DNA of 35,963 bases from positions 1 to 35,963 of IMG/VR virus record IMGVR_UViG_3300024346_000239; one strand, 5' to 3'. The notes under the pieces are model-generated. The model did no database searches. It was not told the origin of the DNA and worked only from the letters and a program-made list of their open reading frames with translations. A program made the translations under genes and the position numbers. Positions 2,860 to 35,402 of the stretch are shown here, piece by piece. Origin of the DNA: a virus. Numbering within the stretch: the stretch's first letter is position 1; the number at the start of each line of letters is the position of its first letter.

Positions 2860-4050
2860 ATGGATAAGAAAGCACACGTTGAAGTCTACAAACTTCGCAC
2901 AATTGAGAGATGTGAGACATCGCCTCAAATTAAGTTAATGAGTATGAACAACTCAAAAAATATGTATGAATACCTAGCTAATATTGATGGTACATATCAA
3001 TCTTTTTTAGGCTTCCCACAGGAAGAGCATTTGAGAGAAATTGTTGCATTCTACCCTAATATGCCAACAGACCAAAAAGGTTCTAGGTACATTTGGGAAT
3101 ACAGTTTAGAGGTTGCTACAGATGAATACTTGTTATTCTTAGAGCAAAATCCTACAGTAGACAGATTAAGCGTTGTAAATTACAAGAATAATAAGTCTAT
3201 AGTTCAGTTATTAAAGAGCCACAGACAAGTTATTTGGAAAGATGGCGGAAGAGAAAATAAGAATAACAATATTAAGAGTGACGTAGTTATTTTTGAATTA
3301 GTTAATACAACTGAAATTACAAGTGTAAAAACTAAATTAGAGAAGTTAGCTATCGAGGCAAGTGCTAAAATTAACTTCTGGAGCGAGTTTGATAGTAAAA
3401 CTTATTTAAACTTCTGTTACTTATGGGGTGTTCAAGGAATTGAGACTTTTACAAAAGAAGCTTTATTTAGTTCTATGATTAATAGCGTAAAAAGTAATTT
3501 GGATAAGTATAGAGAAGTAATAGGTTGGTTAGATAACGAAACTAGAATCTATATCAGTATGGGTCTAGCTACCTTATTAAAAGATGAGAGCAAGAAGACT
3601 ATCATAACAAAAGATGGTAATTACTATACCTTTAATAAGGAGTTAGCAGGAGTTACTATAGACGAGGTAGTTAATTACTTTACTACTCATCCTCAATCAT
3701 ATAGGTTATTAAAGAACTTATTAGATGTTAAGGATAATATAGATGTTGAATTGCCTAGCGCACCAAAAGTGTCAATGGACAAGAACGAAATAACTCCAGC
3801 TATTTCACTTGCTGAACAGGAAAAAGAAAAGGAGAAGCACATTGCTGAAATTGAGCGTAAGTTAACTCAAGTAAAAGAAGGCAAGAATGTAATGGGTGAG
3901 AAAGAAAAAGGAAGATTTCCTTTGATAGATAACGTGTTGATTACCACTACAGACGTGTTGGCTCAATTGGCTAGTACTGAAATAGTTGTTAAACATGGCT
4001 TACAAACTCATTACTGGGCTAAAGCAAAAGAATACAAACTAACAAATTAA
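2860..4050 (+). CDS. Structural-module protein of unknown function after portal
   Basis: This is a 396-residue protein that I do not recognise. It starts behind an A-rich leader (aaaaaaaaacaATG), the Bacteroidota substitute for a ribosome-binding site. Residues 1-300 look globular and residues about 318-350 are a charged helix rich in Glu and Lys (EQEKEKEKH), probably a coiled coil. It is followed after 10 nt by a connector-like gene, so it belongs to the portal-to-capsid operon. A role as head-assembly factor, internal protein or maturation protein is possible from position only. Confidence 0.6.
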   Translation: MDKKAHVEVYKLRTIERCETSPQIKLMSMNNSKNMYEYLANIDGTYQSFLGFPQEEHLREIVAFYPNMPTDQKGSRYIWEYSLEVATDEYLLFLEQNPTVDRLSVVNYKNNKSIVQLLKSHRQVIWKDGGRENKNNNIKSDVVIFELVNTTEITSVKTKLEKLAIEASAKINFWSEFDSKTYLNFCYLWGVQGIETFTKEALFSSMINSVKSNLDKYREVIGWLDNETRIYISMGLATLLKDESKKTIITKDGNYYTFNKELAGVTIDEVVNYFTTHPQSYRLLKNLLDVKDNIDVELPSAPKVSMDKNEITPAISLAEQEKEKEKHIAEIERKLTQVKEGKNVMGEKEKGRFPLIDNVLITTTDVLAQLASTEIVVKHGLQTHYWAKAKEYKLTN

Positions 4051-4060
4051 AAAATAAAAA

Positions 4061-4756
4061 ATGAATAACGAGATAGGTTTATTTGACACGATAAGTGCGG
4101 ATTATATAGTAGCAGGTGTAAAGATGGAGTTAGACTTGACTTCAACTACTACCCAAGACTTTTACTTAGAAAATAAAGTAAATGAGGGGATAGGAGCTTT
4201 ACGCAGTGCATACACATTAATTCCAAGTATTGCTGTATTAAATATAGACCCTGATACGTTTTCAGCAAAACTACCTAAAGGCTTTGTTAGGCTAGTAGGT
4301 AAGAACTCAGTAAGAATATTAGATAACACAAGGAATCAGAGTGACAATGGGACGGTTGTATTAGGTACGACCTCTCCCATTGGTAACTCGAACGGTTTCT
4401 TTAAGGGAGATTTAGCTATTAACTTTACCGCACAGGTAGTTGATGGTTACTTGTACTTTGGTAGTGCTATTACACAGACAATGTGTGAAATAAGTTATAT
4501 TGGAACGAACATAGATGCAAACGGAGAATTAAAGATACCAGCCTTGGCTTACAGACCTTTATTAGCTTTTGTTTGTTCTGAATGGCTATTTAAAAACAAT
4601 GACCCTAAGAGTCAAAAATGGGATTTAAGATGGAAGCAAGGTAAGAGCTGGTTCAAGGGAATAATGGCTCAACCTGATGCTATGGAAGCACAATTATTAG
4701 GATACATGAATAACCATATGCCTACCTACGGTCAAGGCGGTTATTGGATGTTCTAA
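4061..4756 (+). CDS. Probable head-tail connector / neck ring protein
   Basis: This 231-residue protein lies between portal and capsid genes. It begins with a helix-rich segment (residues 10-60), continues with a beta-rich middle and ends in helices with aromatic residues (about 165-220). This resembles the tail tubular A / P22 gp4 type adaptors that stack under the portal, although most such genes lie after the capsid gene. No catalytic motif is seen. It shares 4 bp at its 3' end with the opposing gene at 4753-4995. Connector is a fold-level guess; a structural role follows from the operon. Confidence 0.5.
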   Translation: MNNEIGLFDTISADYIVAGVKMELDLTSTTTQDFYLENKVNEGIGALRSAYTLIPSIAVLNIDPDTFSAKLPKGFVRLVGKNSVRILDNTRNQSDNGTVVLGTTSPIGNSNGFFKGDLAINFTAQVVDGYLYFGSAITQTMCEISYIGTNIDANGELKIPALAYRPLLAFVCSEWLFKNNDPKSQKWDLRWKQGKSWFKGIMAQPDAMEAQLLGYMNNHMPTYGQGGYWMF

Positions 4757-4995
4757 AGCTTTAAGAAATTATTTTTATATCTAGTAAGGCTTCCTTTTAT
4801 TATGGAGGTCTTATCTAAACCTAGAAGAGCACATAACTCAAATAGCTCTACAACCTCACGTTGGGTACACCTAAAATTTATTATGGAACTTCCGTTCTTA
4901 GAGTTATTAAGAACCTTGATGCATTGCTCACTTAATTTTTGACTAGGGAGGTTTGCAATTCTCTCTAACAACCTAATATCTATCGTTTTATCCAT
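4753..4995 (-). CDS. Small antisense-oriented protein, candidate DNA-binding regulator
   Basis: An 80-residue gene set against the direction of the whole structural module. It begins MDKTIDIRLLERIANL and ends with a helical segment LDKTSIIKGSLTRYK, which could be the recognition part of a helix-turn-helix or ribbon-helix-helix fold; I do not recognise the family. It has its own Bacteroidota-type promoter on the minus strand, with a perfect palindrome at the expected transcription start, which suggests autoregulation. Its 3' end overlaps the connector-like gene by 4 bp. Independent promoter plus intact frame make it more than a chance frame. Confidence 0.6.
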   Translation of the reverse strand: MDKTIDIRLLERIANLPSQKLSEQCIKVLNNSKNGSSIINFRCTQREVVELFELCALLGLDKTSIIKGSLTRYKNNFLKL

Positions 4996-5000
4996 TAAAT

Positions 5001-5020
5001 GTTTTACCTATATGTAAAAC
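5001..5020. promoter_or_regulatory. Palindromic operator candidate at a minus-strand transcription start
   Basis: GTTTTAC, six bases, GTAAAAC: a perfect 7-bp inverted repeat. It lies between the minus-strand TAnnTTTG box (5022-5029) and the start codon at 4995, so it covers the expected transcription start of the 80-residue gene. This is a classic position for a repressor site. Confidence 0.45.
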
Positions 5021-5021
5021 A

Positions 5022-5050
5022 CAAAGGTAGTTATAATTTTATATAAACAA
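5022..5050 (-). promoter_or_regulatory. Minus-strand promoter of the 80-residue antisense gene
   Basis: Read on the minus strand: TTG (5050-5048), an 18-nt spacer and TACCTTTG (5029-5022), a full match to TTG-N17-23-TAnnTTTG. It fires leftwards, against the head genes. Confidence 0.6.
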
Positions 5051-5100
5051 ATATAAATATAATCTTTGCAAGAGAAAAAAACATTAATACAATAAACATT

Positions 5101-6156
5101 ATGGAAGAAAGAGTATTAGACGCAATGGAGCAGTTGCGCCATGACGAGCTAAATGCAGCACTAGGTGGTGTAAAGAAGCAAGAAGAACAAGACGCAGCAA
5201 CTGAGTTATTAAACTCACAGAATGCAGAAGCAGAACAAAAAAGATTAGACGCAGTAGCAGCTGAAAACTCAGAAGAAGATAAAACTGATGAATCAGCAGC
5301 AGAAGAAGTCGTAGAATTATCGTTCATTGAAAAATTAAATGCAGACCCAGCAGTAGAAGCTACTGAAACTGAAAATGTATCTGAATCTATTAAAGCTCAA
5401 TTAGAGGCTTACGAAGCACTAAAGAAGCAAGTAGAAGAGCAAGAGAACTCAGACGTAGCTAAATTACTAAAGAGTGGTTTAACATTACAACAAATTGCAG
5501 ATGGCATAAAGAAGATAGATTACTCTAGCCACTCTATAGAAGACTTAATAAAGTTAGAACTAGAGAAGGAAGGAATAACAGGAGACGACTTAGAAACAGC
5601 TCTAGACGAAGAAGTTTCTAATTACAACTCACTATCAATATTAGCAAGAGCAAAGTATGATTCAGCTTTAAAGGCTAATTATAAATCAGAAGTTGTAGTT
5701 GACGATGCAATAAAGCTATTAAACGACAAACTAAATGAGAATGCTAGTGTCTTAGACCCTAAACAAAAACAATTAGCGATTGAGGCAATGGCTAAAGAAG
5801 ACTTAGGAGCTGTAGACCAAGTATTTGATACCTTAAGAAAGCAGAACTACGAAGTTAATAACGATGTAGTAGCAGCCATAAAAGAAAGATATAACCCTAT
5901 AATGGCTGAGTTATATGTAACAAAAGAAGGTGGTTTTGACGTAAAGAAATTTATTGAAGAGAGCTACACTTTGAAGTATCATAAACAAGAAAAAGAATCG
6001 GCAGTAGCAGCCGCAGAGAAAAGAGCCTATGATAAGGCTAAAAAAGAATTTGCTAACCCCGATATGAGTAGTAGAGGTGGAGGAGCAACAGGAACTGGGA
6101 AGTCGGTTGAACAACAACTTGAAGAACAGGAAATGAAAAGATTTAAAGGACAATAA
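5101..6156 (+). CDS. Probable capsid scaffolding protein
   Basis: A 351-residue protein directly upstream of the major capsid gene. The first 130 residues are very acidic and rich in Ala, Glu and Gln (helical, probable coiled coil); the rest stays helical and charged; the C-terminus is Gly-rich then Gln/Glu/Lys-rich and ends MKRFKGQ. This composition and position fit an internal scaffold that guides procapsid assembly and leaves before or during packaging; basic C-terminal helices often bind the shell. No protease motif is visible, so removal by proteolysis cannot be argued. Scaffold is inferred from position and composition. Confidence 0.65.
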   Translation: MEERVLDAMEQLRHDELNAALGGVKKQEEQDAATELLNSQNAEAEQKRLDAVAAENSEEDKTDESAAEEVVELSFIEKLNADPAVEATETENVSESIKAQLEAYEALKKQVEEQENSDVAKLLKSGLTLQQIADGIKKIDYSSHSIEDLIKLELEKEGITGDDLETALDEEVSNYNSLSILARAKYDSALKANYKSEVVVDDAIKLLNDKLNENASVLDPKQKQLAIEAMAKEDLGAVDQVFDTLRKQNYEVNNDVVAAIKERYNPIMAELYVTKEGGFDVKKFIEESYTLKYHKQEKESAVAAAEKRAYDKAKKEFANPDMSSRGGGATGTGKSVEQQLEEQEMKRFKGQ

Positions 6157-6193
6157 TAACAACAAAAACAAATAATAATAAATAAAAAAAACA

Positions 6194-7519
6194 ATGAGTA
6201 ATCAAACAATTATCAATGGTAATACCTCAAGTGTCAATATTTTTGATGCTTTGAATTTAACTCCACGTCAAATTGAACGCCAAACTGTTATGACACAGCC
6301 TGCGTACGCAATGGGACAAGCTAAAATTCCTTTAGCTATGAGCAACTACGGTGAATCATCAGCTTTCAAATCTGGTTCTAGAACTTGGGATATCCCTCGT
6401 ATGAACAACCAATTCAAAAAGGCTAATGTTCAAAGTGCTACAGGTTCAGGAACTTCTGTATTACAAGTAACTTTAACTGACCCTATTTTTAGTGCAATCC
6501 CTGCTGGAACTTTAGTTCAAGACCCTACAAGTGGTACTTACGCTACAGTATCTAACACAGCTAACGGTCAATTAACTTTAGTTTATGATACAAACTCAAA
6601 CTCTAGTGGAACTACTTTTGCTGCTACAGATTTTGCAACAGGTAACTTAATCTCTCCTAGAGGTGTAGTAGGTAATATTTCAACTCGTCAAGAGGTAGAA
6701 GGTACTTACACAATTCCAGAAGTTGATACTTACCAAATTGGTTCATGGGACAAAACTTGTACAATGTCTTTAGAGGAATTAAAAACTCAAACTTACATTG
6801 CTTCAGTTGATGGCACAGACTACTACGCTAAGAACAAACAATTAGAAGTATTAAACGAGTTCTACACTTCGTACTATGCTTTCTTATATTCTGATGCAAA
6901 AGGTGTAACTAGTGCTACTAGCCCTCGCTCTCCTTCTTTAATCAACCAAATCAAAACTTTTGCTCCTAACAACATCGTAATGAAGTCACAAGCTGACATC
7001 ACATTATCAGAGTTCGAAAGCACTGCAAAAGAATTTGTTCGTAATGGTTCATTAAACTCAAACGAAATATTAGTATTTGGTGGTTTAGACTACTTATCTA
7101 ATATGTACAACATCTTACGTCCTTACATCTTAACAGCTGGTAAAGACAACGTATTAGGTGGAGACTTAGTAAAAGGTTTAGACGTACAGTACTACCAAGC
7201 TTTTGGTTTAACTTTCAAATTCGTATTGGATATGTTTGTTGAAAACCAAAACATCTGGGGTAGAACTCGTACAAACTCAGCTATGTGGGTTGATGCTTCT
7301 AAAGTTCAATTACAAAACGGTTCTATGGCAGCTCCAATCTACAAAGTGTATAAAGCAGTAGACGGCTTACACGCTTGGAACATCAATGGCGGTAGCGATA
7401 TCAACGGTAACTTGGTTAAAACAGGTTCTACTGGTCAGTTAGCTGCTTCTACTCAATTCCATATGGAAGGTTCTTATATCATTGCTAACCCTAAAGCAGC
7501 TTTATATCACTCATTTTAA
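6194..7519 (+). CDS. Major capsid protein
   Basis: A 441-residue protein after the scaffold candidate, expected to have the HK97 fold and to form the shell. The N-terminal 50 residues look like an extended arm; residues about 75-150 are a Thr/Ser/Gly-rich beta region (insertion or E-loop type), followed by mixed alpha/beta segments. Codon choice differs visibly from neighbours: the gene prefers CGT for Arg and AAC for Asn where the portal and scaffold genes use AGA and AAT. This is a common sign of very high expression. A hairpin follows the stop. The start is set by the A-rich leader (aaaaaaaacaATG). Identity rests on order, size and codon bias. Confidence 0.8.
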   Translation: MSNQTIINGNTSSVNIFDALNLTPRQIERQTVMTQPAYAMGQAKIPLAMSNYGESSAFKSGSRTWDIPRMNNQFKKANVQSATGSGTSVLQVTLTDPIFSAIPAGTLVQDPTSGTYATVSNTANGQLTLVYDTNSNSSGTTFAATDFATGNLISPRGVVGNISTRQEVEGTYTIPEVDTYQIGSWDKTCTMSLEELKTQTYIASVDGTDYYAKNKQLEVLNEFYTSYYAFLYSDAKGVTSATSPRSPSLINQIKTFAPNNIVMKSQADITLSEFESTAKEFVRNGSLNSNEILVFGGLDYLSNMYNILRPYILTAGKDNVLGGDLVKGLDVQYYQAFGLTFKFVLDMFVENQNIWGRTRTNSAMWVDASKVQLQNGSMAAPIYKVYKAVDGLHAWNINGGSDINGNLVKTGSTGQLAASTQFHMEGSYIIANPKAALYHSF

Positions 7520-9496: not shown

Positions 9497-10132
9497 ATGA
9501 AGTTATTTTCAGTAGCAATAGGAAATCAATATGAATTAGAATCAGAGCGTTTAAAGCGTACTATTTCTAATAATATTGAAGTTTTTACTAAAGCAAATAG
9601 AAAATATATTGAAATAAGTAGTGACCCTCTTATAAATGGGTTGTGGCATAAATGTAATTTTGCTAATTATATAGATAAAACTAAAGAACCTGTTGTTTTT
9701 ATGGATGCTGATATGTTTACACTAACAAAAAATCCTTTTGAAACATTTAGTGTAAAAGAAAGTACTGAATTTGCTTATGTACCATACATAGGGAAATGGT
9801 ATCTTCCTGATACTATTAGACAAGATGCTTTTGATTTTCATGGGCATAAGATTAATAGTGGTTTTATGTATTTTAAAAATTTAGAAATTGCTAAAGATAT
9901 TTGTAATCAATGGCAATATGAATATCTTGAAAGAGAAAAATTATATAATGTTTATAAAGGGATTTCAAAAGATGAATATGACGAGTGGGCTTTAATGATA
10001 GCTCTTATGAAAAAAAATTACAATATAGAGTTACTTGATAGTAAATGGAATAATTGGGAACTTAAAACAGAAGATGAAATTAAAGCATCAGATTCAGTAT
10101 TTTTTCAATCACATAATTTTTTATACTTATAA
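9497..10132 (+). CDS. GT-A fold glycosyltransferase (GT8-like)
   Basis: A 211-residue protein with the marks of a GT-A sugar transferase. A hydrophobic strand runs into DAD (residues 70-72), the metal- and nucleotide-sugar-binding DxD motif. NSGFMYF follows at 120-126, the NxG acceptor-site motif of GT8-like enzymes, and DEWALMIAL at 162-170, the helix after the second substrate loop. It would transfer a sugar from a nucleotide donor in the host cytoplasm. It follows an LRR protein gene by one base and sits between capsid and neck genes, so a virion protein or a host surface polymer could be the acceptor. No membrane segment is seen. A terminator follows. Confidence 0.75.
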   Translation: MKLFSVAIGNQYELESERLKRTISNNIEVFTKANRKYIEISSDPLINGLWHKCNFANYIDKTKEPVVFMDADMFTLTKNPFETFSVKESTEFAYVPYIGKWYLPDTIRQDAFDFHGHKINSGFMYFKNLEIAKDICNQWQYEYLEREKLYNVYKGISKDEYDEWALMIALMKKNYNIELLDSKWNNWELKTEDEIKASDSVFFQSHNFLYL

Positions 10133-11812: not shown

Positions 11813-14800
11813 ATGGCACAGGACACCACAATTAACTCTTTTGAGGGCGGCTTAAATAAAGACGTAGCCCTAGTATCTTTACCTTCTAATCAATATGACG
11901 AGGCTAATGATGTAGAATTTATATCTGATGAAATAGGCAAATTAACGACTCTAGAAGCTAAAAAGGGTACAGGACTTGCTAAGACCACTGTTCCTAATGC
12001 AACTCCTCAATTACAGATATGGAGAGTTAAAACTTATAGCGATGCTACTCAAATAGCTTTACCAGATTATGCCAGTACTCAAACTTTTTTTCTAGACCAA
12101 TTAGATGGTTTAGCACCTATAAGTGTAACTATAGGAGCTGGTGATAATGCTTATTTTGTGTCTACATTAAATGCCGCATTTGCTTCTGCTGGTGTTTCGG
12201 CAACAGTAGCGTCAATAACCTTATCAGAATTATATACAACCATCACTTTTAACGGACTATACTCTTACAAAGAATTAAGACAAAGAGTTACATTTGCAAC
12301 AAGTGGAACTATAATAAATGTAATACCAACACTTATTCAGGAAAAAATTACTACAGAAACTCAATTAGAACCCATAGCTTATGTTAACAGTCAAAACTTG
12401 GGTTTTGTATTAAGTGTAAGCGAAGATAATACTATAACCGAGATTGGAGTAGCAGACGAAGATAATAATTGGGCTTATACAAGATTATTAAGAACAAAGA
12501 ACTTCATAGTAAGCAAAAACCATCCAATTGAAATGTTAGTAGAACAGCAAAACGATGGTGTCTATACTCTCTATTTTACTGACAATACTATCAAAGACAA
12601 ATGTATATATATACCACCTGCCTTAACTCAAGATTGCTGTCTAACATATACACCTACTAATATTCAAATACCTAGCAAGGGAATATATGATTTAAACAAA
12701 ACTGACAATCAGACTAATAGTCAATTAATAAATAATATTGGTTACGTTAGCTACAAAAATACTTTAAGTAGTGGAGGAGGTTTATTAACAGGAGGAAAGA
12801 GATATACTTGTAGGTTTGGAATAAATGGTTCTAATATAACTACTCAGTGGAGTATATTAAGCAATATTGTTCCTGTTATAGCTGCAAGTGCTGACAGTGG
12901 ACTTGCTTGGGTAACAGTACAGGGAACTCCAAGCGGAGAAATGACCAGTAAAAGAAATATATTGACTATCAATAACGCTCAGTCAGATGTATTTAACTTT
13001 GTTGAGCTAGGAGTTGTTAATTATGCAGGAGAAAATGCTACGTCAGCAGAGTTAATAGGAAGATATGATATACCTTCAAATACCTTTGATATAACTCACA
13101 CAGGATTAGAACAAACAACATTACTTGATGTAATAAGTTTAATAGAAGCAGAACCAGTTTTATTAAAAGTAAAAGATATAGAGGTAAAGAAAAATAGATT
13201 AAATAGAGCTAACGTAGTAGTAGCAAATGAAGATGCTAAGTGGCAAACAATTGCTGAAGGAGCTACAGTAGGTACTCAAAGATTTCAAGATATAGGGAAC
13301 ACAGGGGCTCTTCCATATTTTAGCAATGTTGATTTCTTTTCTGCTAATAAAGGAGGAAGTAATTTATTTAACTCAACTACAGATTGGACTACTCAAAATA
13401 TATTTACTTCTTCAAGTAATGTTACTGTAGGAAATTCTTTTTATGACCCTTCTACTGGCTACTATACAGTACAAGCGGCTGACGGAAACAATGCCGAGGC
13501 AATATTAAGCGGTAGTTTTAATATAGATATTGGAAACGGTATTAATATATATAAAGACATAGCTACTACCGCAGGAGTAGTAGTTGCTGTAACTGCTGGA
13601 AATATTGTTACTGGAGGTTTAGCTTCAATTCCATTAGCGGCAGCTGGTGCTGCTGTAATAGCTGACCAAGGGTTTAATGTAAATTCTTTTTTTAGTCTTA
13701 GTGTTATGGTCTTTAAGAAAGAGGCTGGAGCGGCTGCTGAGGAATTAGTAATTGAAAAATTAATAGGTAGTAGGGGAAATATTGACGACCAAAGTTCTAA
13801 TTACCTAGCTTATTTTAATGAAACTGTACAATTATCTTATAATGCAGGTGATAAAATCCGTTTTATGTTTGTATTTTATCAAGGTACAGGAACTGCTAAG
13901 TTAAGCACAATGGGTAATAACTTTACTATTGCTATGCATCAAACAGCTAATAGTGGAGCTTTACAATTCAAAGGAACAACTGTAGGAGAATATCAAATTC
14001 CATATAACGTGGCAAACAGAGCTGGTTATATGCTATATGAGTACTACCTAACATATGTTAGATTTCATTTAAAGAATGGATATATAACAGCACCTTACCC
14101 TTTAGGTAAAAAATATATAGATGCCGCTACATACATAAGAGGGTTGGTGCAGATAACCCCATCAAACGAGTTAACTCCATTTACAGATTTAGATGTTTCT
14201 TCTGCAAGAAAAGTATATAATTACGCACCAAGGGTAAGTGGGCTAAACCTAACAAGCGTACTTGGCGAATTAGCTGGTGTTTCATTTGAGAGAAGCGAAC
14301 CACTTAATACCGTAATAGGTAGCGGAATATATCACAATGCTAGAAAAATAAAAGGTGATATTTATACTTCTGGAACAGGCTACGCACCAAGTACTCCGTA
14401 TCCAGCAATTGATATCCCTTCGCTTACCTCTGACCGTAGATTATTTGGTTTATTTATATCTAACGATTTGGATAATAACCCTATAAAATATAGTACAGGC
14501 GATTATCTTAAATTAATAGGAATACCTTCTGTATTATCTTATAACCCAAATTGGCAAAGCGGACTTAAACAAACTGGAGTTGTTACCGAGTTTTTAGGAG
14601 CAGTTCAGGCAGGTAATAACGAAAGAGTTATGTATGACCCTATTACTCCAACAGTAACTCACAGAGACATAGCTATATCTGATAGTCGTAGCGTTAGCTT
14701 TAATAGTGTTGGAGATTATTTAAGTAATACAGGTGCGGATAGATATTATAAACCTAGCACAAGTGTTCTTAATACTGCTTGTCAAAATTCATCTGCTGTA

Positions 14801-16552
14801 GCTATAACTACTTCAGATTATGTTAGAACAAAAAACACAACTGCTGTGGATGATTCTAATACTTATGTAGCTTTTTATATTAGACCAATAGACTTGTCTA
14901 GTATTGATTACAGAAATTATAAACCAGTTCCAACAGGAGAAATTATAGCCTTAACAAATGCTTCTAATCCAATAATAACCAGAACTATTTATGGTGGAGA
15001 TACTTATACTCAAAAAGTAGTAAGAAAAGAATCTTTTTGGTTTCCAAGCCCTTACGATTATACCAAAAACGTAAATACTGTAATTACGTTTTATGCACAA
15101 AACAGATTGAATAGTCAATTATTTTATACAAACAATAATGCTCCGTCTTCAACATGGAATTTACAGGGCAGTAGAAGTATATACCAATATTTATTCCCTT
15201 TTAAATCAGCAGCAGAGATAGTAGATGAGCAACATAACTTTGATAAAAGCTATATAGGAGCAAATCAGGTAAACAGAATAGCTCCGTACAATGCTAGGCT
15301 TCCTTATCCAACAGCTAATCCAACAAGAATTTATTATAGCGAAGAAAAGGCAGTAGGTAGCTTATACGACAACTACAGAAAAATTAAACCTTTAGACTTT
15401 GTAGATTTAGAATTAAAGAATGGAGCTATATCAGCAATATATGATATCAGAGACGTTATGGTAGTAATACAGCCTACATTCGTGGGTGCAATTCCTTATG
15501 CTGCCGATACATTAATTCAGAGCGACAGTACAGCTAAGATATTAGTTGGTAGCGGAACTGTGTATAGTAATAGGGTATATCCTTTATCAAGCTTTGGAAC
15601 TAGCTTAAAGACAATGAGCTGTAAAGGGTATAACTCTAATGGTAATCCTCAGGTATATTGGATGTCAGATGATTTTGCTAACTTTAATCGTTATGATTAC
15701 AGCGGAGTTAAAATATTGAGTTCTGATAACAATATGAGAACTTGGTTTTTAAATAATACAGTTAATATTAAGAACGAGTTTGATGTAAATATATACTATA
15801 ACACCAAGAAGGAAGACCTAGTAATGACATCAAGAGCAGTTAAGGCTTTTCCTACATGGAATCCTGCAACAACATACACTCCATTTACTTATGTTTCTTA
15901 TGGAGCAGCAGGAAGATGGAAAAACTTCGAGCAGATTCCTTCTATATACGTTTCTAATACGACCAATACAAACTCTAATCCTTACGACTATCCTAGCGAT
16001 TGGGCTTTTGTAGACCCTGCTAGTAGTACATTTTACAATATGTGGAGCTTAATCTTTAACGAGAAAAGGAATAACTTCACTACATTTATGAGCCCTTTAC
16101 AGAAGAGATATTTCAAGCATAATAACTTAGTTCTAACTCCTAGAGGAGTAGACGTTAAGGGTAATATCTATCAAATGGATAATGTAAATGGTAATTATTT
16201 GCAATGGTTTCCTTTAGCAGGAAATACAGACTTTAAATTAGGTAATTTTATTTTATCAACCGTATTTAATAAGTTCGGAACAGACAGAAAAATGATTAAT
16301 GTCAATTTTGAAAGAGGAGATGATGTTGCGGTACAGCCAACAACTGTAACAGCTATAACACCAACACAAAGTGTAGATTTGCCAATTAACGAAACTAGAT
16401 TAGGAGTAACTTACTACCCATCTTATTACGATAGTAATGGCGATACTCCTTACGGACAGTTCATTAAGATACTTATTAAGAAGGCTTCTTATTTGAAAAT
16501 AAGGACTATAGCAATGAAATTCAAAAATAAATTTCCATTGAGGATGAAATAG
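11813..16552 (+). CDS. Giant muzzle / tail stabilisation protein
   Basis: At 1579 residues this is the largest protein of the window. The N-terminus (TINSFEGGLNKDVALVSLP and then YDEANDVEF) has the form of the P22 gp10-type stabilisation proteins and the crAss-like muzzle: a short lead-in describing a Gly-rich turn, then N-x-D-V/A and a beta-propeller-like array. Most of the chain is beta-rich with many Tyr, Asn and Thr. Residues about 585-620 contain a hydrophobic Ala/Val/Gly stretch (TTAGVVVAVTAGNIV onward) that could act in membrane contact or gating. It would close the tail tip and hold the fibres. It has its own promoter and ends 64 nt before the fibre operon. Confidence 0.7.
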   Translation: MAQDTTINSFEGGLNKDVALVSLPSNQYDEANDVEFISDEIGKLTTLEAKKGTGLAKTTVPNATPQLQIWRVKTYSDATQIALPDYASTQTFFLDQLDGLAPISVTIGAGDNAYFVSTLNAAFASAGVSATVASITLSELYTTITFNGLYSYKELRQRVTFATSGTIINVIPTLIQEKITTETQLEPIAYVNSQNLGFVLSVSEDNTITEIGVADEDNNWAYTRLLRTKNFIVSKNHPIEMLVEQQNDGVYTLYFTDNTIKDKCIYIPPALTQDCCLTYTPTNIQIPSKGIYDLNKTDNQTNSQLINNIGYVSYKNTLSSGGGLLTGGKRYTCRFGINGSNITTQWSILSNIVPVIAASADSGLAWVTVQGTPSGEMTSKRNILTINNAQSDVFNFVELGVVNYAGENATSAELIGRYDIPSNTFDITHTGLEQTTLLDVISLIEAEPVLLKVKDIEVKKNRLNRANVVVANEDAKWQTIAEGATVGTQRFQDIGNTGALPYFSNVDFFSANKGGSNLFNSTTDWTTQNIFTSSSNVTVGNSFYDPSTGYYTVQAADGNNAEAILSGSFNIDIGNGINIYKDIATTAGVVVAVTAGNIVTGGLASIPLAAAGAAVIADQGFNVNSFFSLSVMVFKKEAGAAAEELVIEKLIGSRGNIDDQSSNYLAYFNETVQLSYNAGDKIRFMFVFYQGTGTAKLSTMGNNFTIAMHQTANSGALQFKGTTVGEYQIPYNVANRAGYMLYEYYLTYVRFHLKNGYITAPYPLGKKYIDAATYIRGLVQITPSNELTPFTDLDVSSARKVYNYAPRVSGLNLTSVLGELAGVSFERSEPLNTVIGSGIYHNARKIKGDIYTSGTGYAPSTPYPAIDIPSLTSDRRLFGLFISNDLDNNPIKYSTGDYLKLIGIPSVLSYNPNWQSGLKQTGVVTEFLGAVQAGNNERVMYDPITPTVTHRDIAISDSRSVSFNSVGDYLSNTGADRYYKPSTSVLNTACQNSSAVAITTSDYVRTKNTTAVDDSNTYVAFYIRPIDLSSIDYRNYKPVPTGEIIALTNASNPIITRTIYGGDTYTQKVVRKESFWFPSPYDYTKNVNTVITFYAQNRLNSQLFYTNNNAPSSTWNLQGSRSIYQYLFPFKSAAEIVDEQHNFDKSYIGANQVNRIAPYNARLPYPTANPTRIYYSEEKAVGSLYDNYRKIKPLDFVDLELKNGAISAIYDIRDVMVVIQPTFVGAIPYAADTLIQSDSTAKILVGSGTVYSNRVYPLSSFGTSLKTMSCKGYNSNGNPQVYWMSDDFANFNRYDYSGVKILSSDNNMRTWFLNNTVNIKNEFDVNIYYNTKKEDLVMTSRAVKAFPTWNPATTYTPFTYVSYGAAGRWKNFEQIPSIYVSNTTNTNSNPYDYPSDWAFVDPASSTFYNMWSLIFNEKRNNFTTFMSPLQKRYFKHNNLVLTPRGVDVKGNIYQMDNVNGNYLQWFPLAGNTDFKLGNFILSTVFNKFGTDRKMINVNFERGDDVAVQPTTVTAITPTQSVDLPINETRLGVTYYPSYYDSNGDTPYGQFIKILIKKASYLKIRTIAMKFKNKFPLRMK

Positions 16553-35147: not shown

Positions 35148-35402
35148 TTAGGCTAAATAATCAGATAAATTGAAAGGGAAATTATAACGTCTAGAGAGCA
35201 GTATAACAATGTCCAAACTGATAGGATATGTTCTATAACCTTTACGCAAGTTACTAACGAATGACGATGGAAGATTACAGTCTAGTAATAGTCTATATAC
35301 ACTAATGTTTTTAGCTAGGCACAATGCATCGATGTAACGTAAGAATGCCAATTGTCCATCCTTGGTTAATTGCTTCCGCTCTGCGCTTATTTGCTTGGTC
35401 AT
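35148..35402 (-). CDS. Xre-type helix-turn-helix regulator
   Basis: An 84-residue protein with one helix-turn-helix of the Cro/CI (Xre) type: residues about 24-80, containing NISVYRLLLDCNLPSSFVSN (helix, turn, recognition helix), then RKGYRTYPISLDIVILLSRR. The order of helices and the S/N-x-L-x-K-G after the recognition helix are typical. The N-terminus is basic. It faces the repeat-rich, gene-free region in front of the early genes, and would be well placed to repress them. Its own promoter is not clear. Confidence 0.72.
   Translation of the reverse strand: MTKQISAERKQLTKDGQLAFLRYIDALCLAKNISVYRLLLDCNLPSSFVSNLRKGYRTYPISLDIVILLSRRYNFPFNLSDYLA

Follow-up and report, generated by a model that had tools for sequence, protein, structure and literature searches.

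A candidate autorepressor gene divergent from the scaffold and capsid genes in a relative of Flavobacteriia phages

What does a single small gene do on the opposite strand of a phage structural operon, and which of its neighbours does it serve? The question is raised by a virus record of 35,963 bases (the window, taken at its full length), in which the apparent genes from position 1 to about 22,850, as judged by eye from the list of open reading frames (ORFs), all lie on the plus strand with the sole exception of an 80-residue gene on the minus strand at 4753-4995, here called the regulator. On one side it meets, tail to tail and with a 4-nt overlap, a plus-strand ORF at 4061-4756 that is putatively a connector or adaptor gene, a name taken from a first-pass annotation of the sequence. 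On the other side it diverges from a plus-strand ORF at 5101-6156, which encodes a scaffold-like protein of 351 aa named by its position, between portal-type and capsid-type genes. The gene for the probable major capsid protein (441 aa, plus strand, 6194-7519) was named by position and size, and no significant Pfam or PHROG family was found for its product. The related contig L018 carries homologues of both proteins, 45% and 33% identical respectively; beyond the groups of the window and of L018, the scaffold and capsid names follow position, size and record annotation and not similarity to the proteins of the window.

Since the window itself carries only a terminase fragment, its place among other phages was assessed with the terminase of L009, a close relative. 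Among annotated phages this protein comes nearest to those of Flavobacterium elemo phages, Cellulophaga phages, Maribacter phage Panino and MW202828, with about 25-29% identity across about half of its length; a search of 50,697 phage records at E 1e-5 matched none of the portal, capsid and connector-like proteins of the window. The terminase gene of one relative, at L022:8492-11605, has an intein-like insert, seemingly in the Walker A region when inspected by eye, and encodes 1037 aa compared to the usual 670-680 or so. The genome of L054 is mosaic: its terminase is 49% identical to that of the window group (81% in the case of L018), and its regulator, scaffold and capsid proteins are 89-96% identical to those of L018. 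Within the structural block of the window, positions 9497-10132 hold a nucleotide-diphospho-sugar transferase-like gene (PF03407, E 9e-7), and at the early-gene end an 84-aa protein encoded on the minus strand at 35148-35402 has, by eye, the look of a small HTH regulator, with no Pfam match and a weak PHROG match (E 0.05).

The regulator gene and its protein

The reading frame of the regulator is under purifying selection. Between the window and contig L002, the gene shows 9 differences at its roughly 49 synonymous sites and none at its roughly 191 nonsynonymous sites. The corresponding counts are 10 and 3 for the window against L003 and L004, 4 and 1 against L005 (without the first two codons), 23 and 7 between L018 and L019, and 20 and 10 between L018 and L054. 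Since the distant homologues (L018, L019, L020 and L054) are also about 30% identical in protein, we count the regulator as a real gene, and the 80-residue gene that the first-pass annotation had placed against the structural operon is borne out. Scans of cellular genomes found no copy of the protein. Three close contigs (among L003, L005/L006 and L011/L021) have an end in the gene or no more than about 250 bases away, and the gene is also where contig 3300027759_000080 overlaps itself end to end, with two mismatches; this may reflect strain variation at that spot or an assembly effect.

Searches of Pfam, NCBIfam and PHROGs assigned the protein to no significant family. The Pfam ribbon-helix-helix (RHH) profile RHH_1 (PF01402) matched none of the 10 records at E up to 10, the library cut-off not being reached, and matched 14 of 14 control genomes, 9 of them above the cut-off. 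A profile built from seven homologues gave a weak PDB match to CopG (E 0.82, the second of three matches), and the window protein alone gave none. CopG, picked after this weak match, was then represented by an alignment of eight CopG-family plasmid proteins and compared with the homologue profiles by hhalign. The profile A2 matched it with 87% probability and a score of 31.7, ungapped, over residues 39-75, and none of 200 column shuffles did as well (best 17.7); the profile A6 gave 83%. Profile A2 is shallow (Neff 1.6, about two effective sequences), and single sequences scored far lower (8.9% for the window, 21% for L018 and 3.4% for L054). Even as a single sequence, the regulator ranked first against CopG among 72 ORFs of the window (18.2, the next 15.0); the L018 copy ranked first among 86 ORFs of L018 and L023 narrowly (20.7 vs 19.9) and over 17 columns only. 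The match spans beta1-alphaA-alphaB and is, at the level of sequence profiles, that of an RHH domain.

Structure prediction was less informative. Two AlphaFold monomer models of low confidence (mean pLDDT 69 and 67) placed helices at the expected alphaA and alphaB and had no confident strand, and fold searches with both listed no RHH chain. With Foldseek, the best E was 3.8 for the first model and the top match of the second was a DUF1048 protein (E 0.52); this likeness (VIA Z 5.3, 4.6 A, 69 residues) was discarded, as values in this range were counted as common. Thus, of the RHH or HTH fold suggested as a check by the first-pass annotation, the RHH fold finds support in the hhalign match to CopG but neither in Pfam nor in the fold searches. 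The C-terminal half of the regulator is likely a CopG-type RHH domain, and the protein as a whole is probably a small DNA-binding protein.

The regulator promoter and the dyad at its predicted start

On the minus strand, the regulator is preceded by TTTG-N18-TACCTTTG, directly followed by TGTTTTACATATAGGTAAAACA, four bases and the start codon. The two motifs are a -33 element (TTTG, minus strand, 5048-5051) and, 18 nt away, a -7 element (TACCTTTG, minus strand, 5022-5029) that fits the consensus given in excerpts of PMC6847099; by motif, the predicted promoter is of Bacteroidota type. The full motif is common, with 6 matches in the window compared to 5.7 expected under a Markov model, and conservation was therefore used as evidence in place of the motif itself. 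Wherever the contig of a relative covers this region (L002, L003, L004, L006, L018, L019 and L054), the motif is kept upstream of the regulator. The perfect TTG-N18-TACCTTTG promoter of the first-pass annotation thus stands, in the form TTTG-N18-TACCTTTG. Because the -7 element of F. johnsoniae occupies -12 to -5 (PMC6847099, in excerpt), the first base of the regulator transcript is predicted at 5017.

This position falls inside a palindrome, as had been proposed from the sequence of the window. The core, GTTTTAC-N6-GTAAAAC at 5001-5020, occurs once in the window and extends to a 22-bp dyad, TGTTTTACCTATATGTAAAACA, at 5000-5021 (10 of 11 pairs), from about -4 to +18 of the predicted transcript, where it is a probable operator. 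Its letters are identical in the four other close contigs. The dyad by itself is unremarkable, as about 2.6 20-mers with at least 9 of 10 pairs are expected by chance per window, and it is its placement that counts. Among 283 TAnnTTTG sites pooled from six sequences, the site of the window included, only one (0.35%), that of the window, has so strong a dyad immediately downstream.

In distant relatives, the architecture of a -7 element followed by a dyad is kept and the letters differ. In L018 and L019, TACCTTTG is followed after one base by GTATG-N7-CATAC (6 of 8 pairs in L018); in L054, TATCTTTG is followed after one base by GTAATACATTGTAATAC (7 of 8 pairs). By eye, L018 and L054 retain the dyad centre with changed letters, including one G-C to T-A pair change. 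L023, which has a different regulator protein, carries TAGTTTTG and then TATGTTTTTAAATACATA (8 of 9 pairs), and L022 has a regulator promoter and no convincing dyad in the leader. In shuffle tests of the dyad beside the -7 element, p was 0.002 for the window, 0.06 for L018, 0.008 for L054, 0.015 for L023 and 0.66 for L022; shuffling of the whole intergenic region gave 0.009, 0.18, 0.036, 0.019 and 0.53 in the same order, with a combined Fisher p of 0.005 across the window, L018, L023 and L022. An operator-like dyad at the regulator's own promoter or start is thus strong in the window, L023 and L054, weak in L018 and lacking in L022. The reading of the regulator as an autorepressed gene, made by the first-pass annotation, gains from the dyad at the start point and from this comparison, but not from L022 and little from L018. 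We infer that the regulator would repress its own promoter through the dyad.

Two further ideas about this leader were dropped. A second dyad over the -33 region, the positions of which seemed shared, gave shuffle p values of 0.12-0.98 in all six sequences, and as a 5' RNA hairpin the dyad would be poor, the predicted leaders folding weakly (0 to -1.0 kcal/mol) in six of six.

The divergent scaffold gene and the spot beside it

The regulator and scaffold genes are adjacent and divergent in all nine contigs that show both at least partly, namely the window, the four close contigs, L018, L019, L020 and L054 (the regulator, scaffold and capsid proteins of L018 and L020 are identical, and contig 3300028027 has only the start of the scaffold gene). 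This linkage has survived rearrangement. Relative to the terminase and portal genes, those for scaffold and capsid are inverted in L018, L019, L020 and L054; in L018, where the scaffold copy is likewise divergent, and in L019 and L054, the regulator homologue lies 88 nt from the scaffold start. The 3' side of the regulator varies: L018 has an 87-aa ORF there, L019 the beginning of a different one and L054 an ORF of 356 aa. As the divergent scaffold gene is kept while the 3' neighbours change, the scaffold-capsid pair becomes a more likely partner of the regulator than the connector-like gene. This tie, together with the unrelated regulators found in some relatives (below), is a point beyond the first-pass annotation.

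The same synteny bears on the antisense RNA that the first-pass annotation had expected to run into the connector-like gene. In the window the arrangement would allow it: the two genes are tail to tail with their 4-nt overlap, no terminator-like site turned up at the junction when 3800-6300 was scanned, and the nearest minus-strand terminator-like site (4614-4600) lies within the connector-like gene. However, the ORFs 3' of the regulator in L018, L019 and L054 share its strand, so that no gene is read antisense there; in L018 about 11.6 kb separate the regulator from the start of the connector homologue, which in L019 also lies elsewhere. Antisense RNA as a conserved function was therefore rejected on synteny, and as the sequence of the regulator is moreover selected as protein, we consider control of head expression by an antisense transcript running into the connector-like gene very unlikely.

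Other regulators occur at the same spot. A terminase-profile search listed 44 loci, of which 23 were laid out, and the junction from portal to scaffold was judged visible in 19 (L032, L034, L054 and L061 being excluded). Five of these 19 (L022, L023, L055, L059 and L064) carry a minus-strand Cro/CI-type HTH gene directly upstream of the scaffold-position gene. The HTH_3 domain is clear in L055 (E 3e-13) and L059 (5e-9; L064 has the same protein), L022 matches HTH_19 just below the Pfam cut-off (1e-6), and the match of L023 is weak (HTH_3, 0.01; the PHROG_8 regulator, 0.002). The regulators of L022 and L023 are related over the HTH part (24% identity, 83 residues, E 0.001), and those of L055 and L059 had no match to other groups at E 0.01. 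L053 has at this spot a 59-aa minus-strand ORF without a Cro/CI-type HTH domain, and the remaining 13 loci show no minus-strand ORF of at least 50 aa at the junction, L060 having an extra plus-strand gene. Grouped by eye, HTH regulators occur in 4 of about 12 lineages, besides two RHH groups. PADLOC gave no matches for the RHH proteins, and its matches of the HTH genes resemble generic HTH matches. Six annotated records (one elemo phage, Panino, MW202828, phi18:3, phi38:1 and Calle_1) have no annotated DNA-binding gene at the junction, and none of the literature matches listed, from open-licence papers seen in excerpt, describes a divergent regulator next to the capsid genes. Going by the domain matches, the divergent spot need not hold a regulator, and where it does, at least two folds occur, RHH and Cro/CI HTH.

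Two small elements near such junctions were seen by eye. At L059:18063-18110, and also in L064, a terminator-like hairpin (GGCGAAC...GTTCGCC and a run of seven T) immediately precedes the start codon of the HTH regulator and points into it, a possible attenuator. In phi18:3, the annotation places a 37-aa minus-strand ORF (gp102, L073:7056-7169) immediately before the scaffold-position gene; this ORF shares sequence with a hairpin that has a T run, and may be a terminator and not a gene.

Do the scaffold and capsid genes have a promoter of their own? Among the loci without a regulator, 7 of 11 have TAnnTTTG 24-37 nt before the scaffold start (L036, L037, L038, L043, L045, L057 and L065, of which L037, L038, L043 and L045 resemble one lineage; L048, L050, L053 and L060 have none at that distance), and so have all six annotated records at 23-39 nt. 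Against a plus-strand background of about 0.05 motifs per 60 nt in sequences of this kind, these frequencies make it appear that the scaffold-capsid genes of this phage group are served by a promoter of their own. The regulated phages have the elements AATCTTTG at -40 in the window (plus strand, 5061-5068, a putative scaffold-capsid promoter with one mismatch to TAnnTTTG), GACATTTG at -27 in L018, L019 and L054, CAATTTTG at -24 in L023, TAATTTTG at -32 in L022 and at -30 in L055, and TATATTTG at -60 in L059; none of them has a matching -33 element. With a mismatched -7 element and no -33 element, the scaffold promoter may be weak or absent in the groups of the window, L018 and L023. On the regulator side, L055 and L059 show no full promoter motif.

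A possible switch, its alternatives and known systems

In the window, the two -7 elements stand back to back 31 bp apart, so that both polymerase footprints should overlap, and from this a switch can be proposed. We favour it tentatively, with somewhat less than an even chance: the regulator would be an autorepressor that times the firing of a weaker scaffold-capsid promoter, which lies back to back with its own and overlaps it. Early in infection, occupancy of the strong host-type promoter of the regulator would exclude the scaffold promoter. As the repressor builds up, a dimeric CopG-like RHH protein would bind the dyad over its own transcription start, shut its own promoter and free, or help, the scaffold promoter, so that scaffold and capsid expression would be delayed or held to a defined level. 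The RHH fold, DNA binding and autorepression are what we infer from the sequences; the effect of the regulator on the scaffold promoter is hypothetical. Timing of head gene expression, one of the two roles offered by the first-pass annotation, would be plausible by way of the scaffold-side promoter. That most of the related lineages seen have no such regulator was counted against the switch.

The other role offered, a small moron gene, is quite possible, if on the doubtful side. The regulator would be an autorepressed, stand-alone gene in a tolerated insertion spot beside the capsid genes, leaving the scaffold promoter unaffected; its strong host-type promoter would be on at once upon infection and then shut by its own product, as with the Aca repressors, of which Aca1 and Aca2 bind inverted repeats on their own promoters (PMC8434428, in excerpt). 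The gene's own promoter and dyad, its small size and opposite strand within a structural block, the many relatives without it and the varying regulators at the spot, which look like insertion-site traffic, all agree with this. Yet the gap holds no second same-strand ORF of at least 60 aa, leaving the window without a visible cargo gene, and the regulator has stayed by the scaffold gene despite rearranged head genes and changed 3' neighbours. An improbable alternative is that the regulator is the first gene of an operon or an orphan repressor acting on distant sites. The L018 regulator does head a same-strand run that includes terminase and portal genes, but this run is absent in the window, where the dyad has one match at up to 3 mismatches (0.71 expected by chance). 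Each of the four close contigs has one exact match; in seven related records all other matches had 3 mismatches, and a reversed control pattern also matched in three of the seven. A regulon of many operators was therefore set aside. Many RHH proteins are antitoxins, and the RHH-like domain and autorepression-like operator would suit one half of a toxin-antitoxin pair. However, the flanking genes of the window are connector-like and scaffold-like, with no partner-like gene, and the flanks in L018, L019 and L054 are varying structural-looking ORFs, making an antitoxin the least likely of these alternatives.

Should the switch hold, the back-to-back promoters would time capsid synthesis locally and independently of the usual late-gene activator, and capsid and scaffold dosage would be a separate control point in phage development. 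It is possible, but doubtful, that Bacteroidota podoviruses have repeatedly put the scaffold-capsid promoter under a divergent autorepressor of at least two unrelated folds; a capsid-specific switch would then have been reinvented with different DNA-binding folds at one promoter. To our knowledge, late-gene timing in Flavobacteriia phages has been little studied, and the locus supplies precise promoters and proteins for testing.

Among known systems, the Elemovirus, Pervagoviridae (phi38:1, Calle_1) and Pachyviridae (phi18:3) phages of Flavobacteriia are related by terminase. They share the order terminase-portal-scaffold-capsid, by annotation and position, and TAnnTTTG before the scaffold-position gene, but in the records covered (one elemo record of 68, phi18:3, phi38:1 and Calle_1) no gene annotated as DNA-binding diverges at that junction. 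The Aca repressors resemble the role proposed for the regulator, as small phage autorepressors acting on inverted repeats on their own promoter (PMC8434428, in excerpt). They differ in their HTH fold and in sharing an operon with an acr gene; no second gene of such an operon was seen between the regulator and the connector-like gene. We know of no signature common to acr genes. CopG, the copy-number autorepressor of plasmid pMV158/pLS1, is the nearest sequence relative found, by the RHH profile match over the beta-helix-helix stretch, and, as proposed for the regulator, comes from a small autoregulated gene (PMC5717011, in excerpt). In contrast to the regulator, CopG controls plasmid replication and is cotranscribed with a downstream gene and not divergent from its target; the eight aligned members have 40-51 aa and lack the N-terminal extension of roughly 35 residues.

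The nearest analogue is the arc/mnt locus of P22. Arc and Mnt are RHH repressors. They differ from the regulator in controlling an antirepressor and not capsid genes, in lying about 10 kb from the scaffold and coat genes, and in showing no profile similarity to it (129 of 200 shuffles as good, in a weak test in which CopG itself reaches 4.8% against Arc/Mnt). An antirepressor of the P22 immI type was not seen, the only other ORF of at least 60 aa in 4756-5101 being one that lies on the strand opposite the scaffold gene and overlaps it. The working principle is nevertheless alike: arc and mnt are coded within a structural gene block with the operator on the regulator promoter, their divergent promoters overlap (14793-14821 plus and 14798-14826 minus in the record annotation), and, as here, the spot varies among related phages (PMC8022706, in excerpt).
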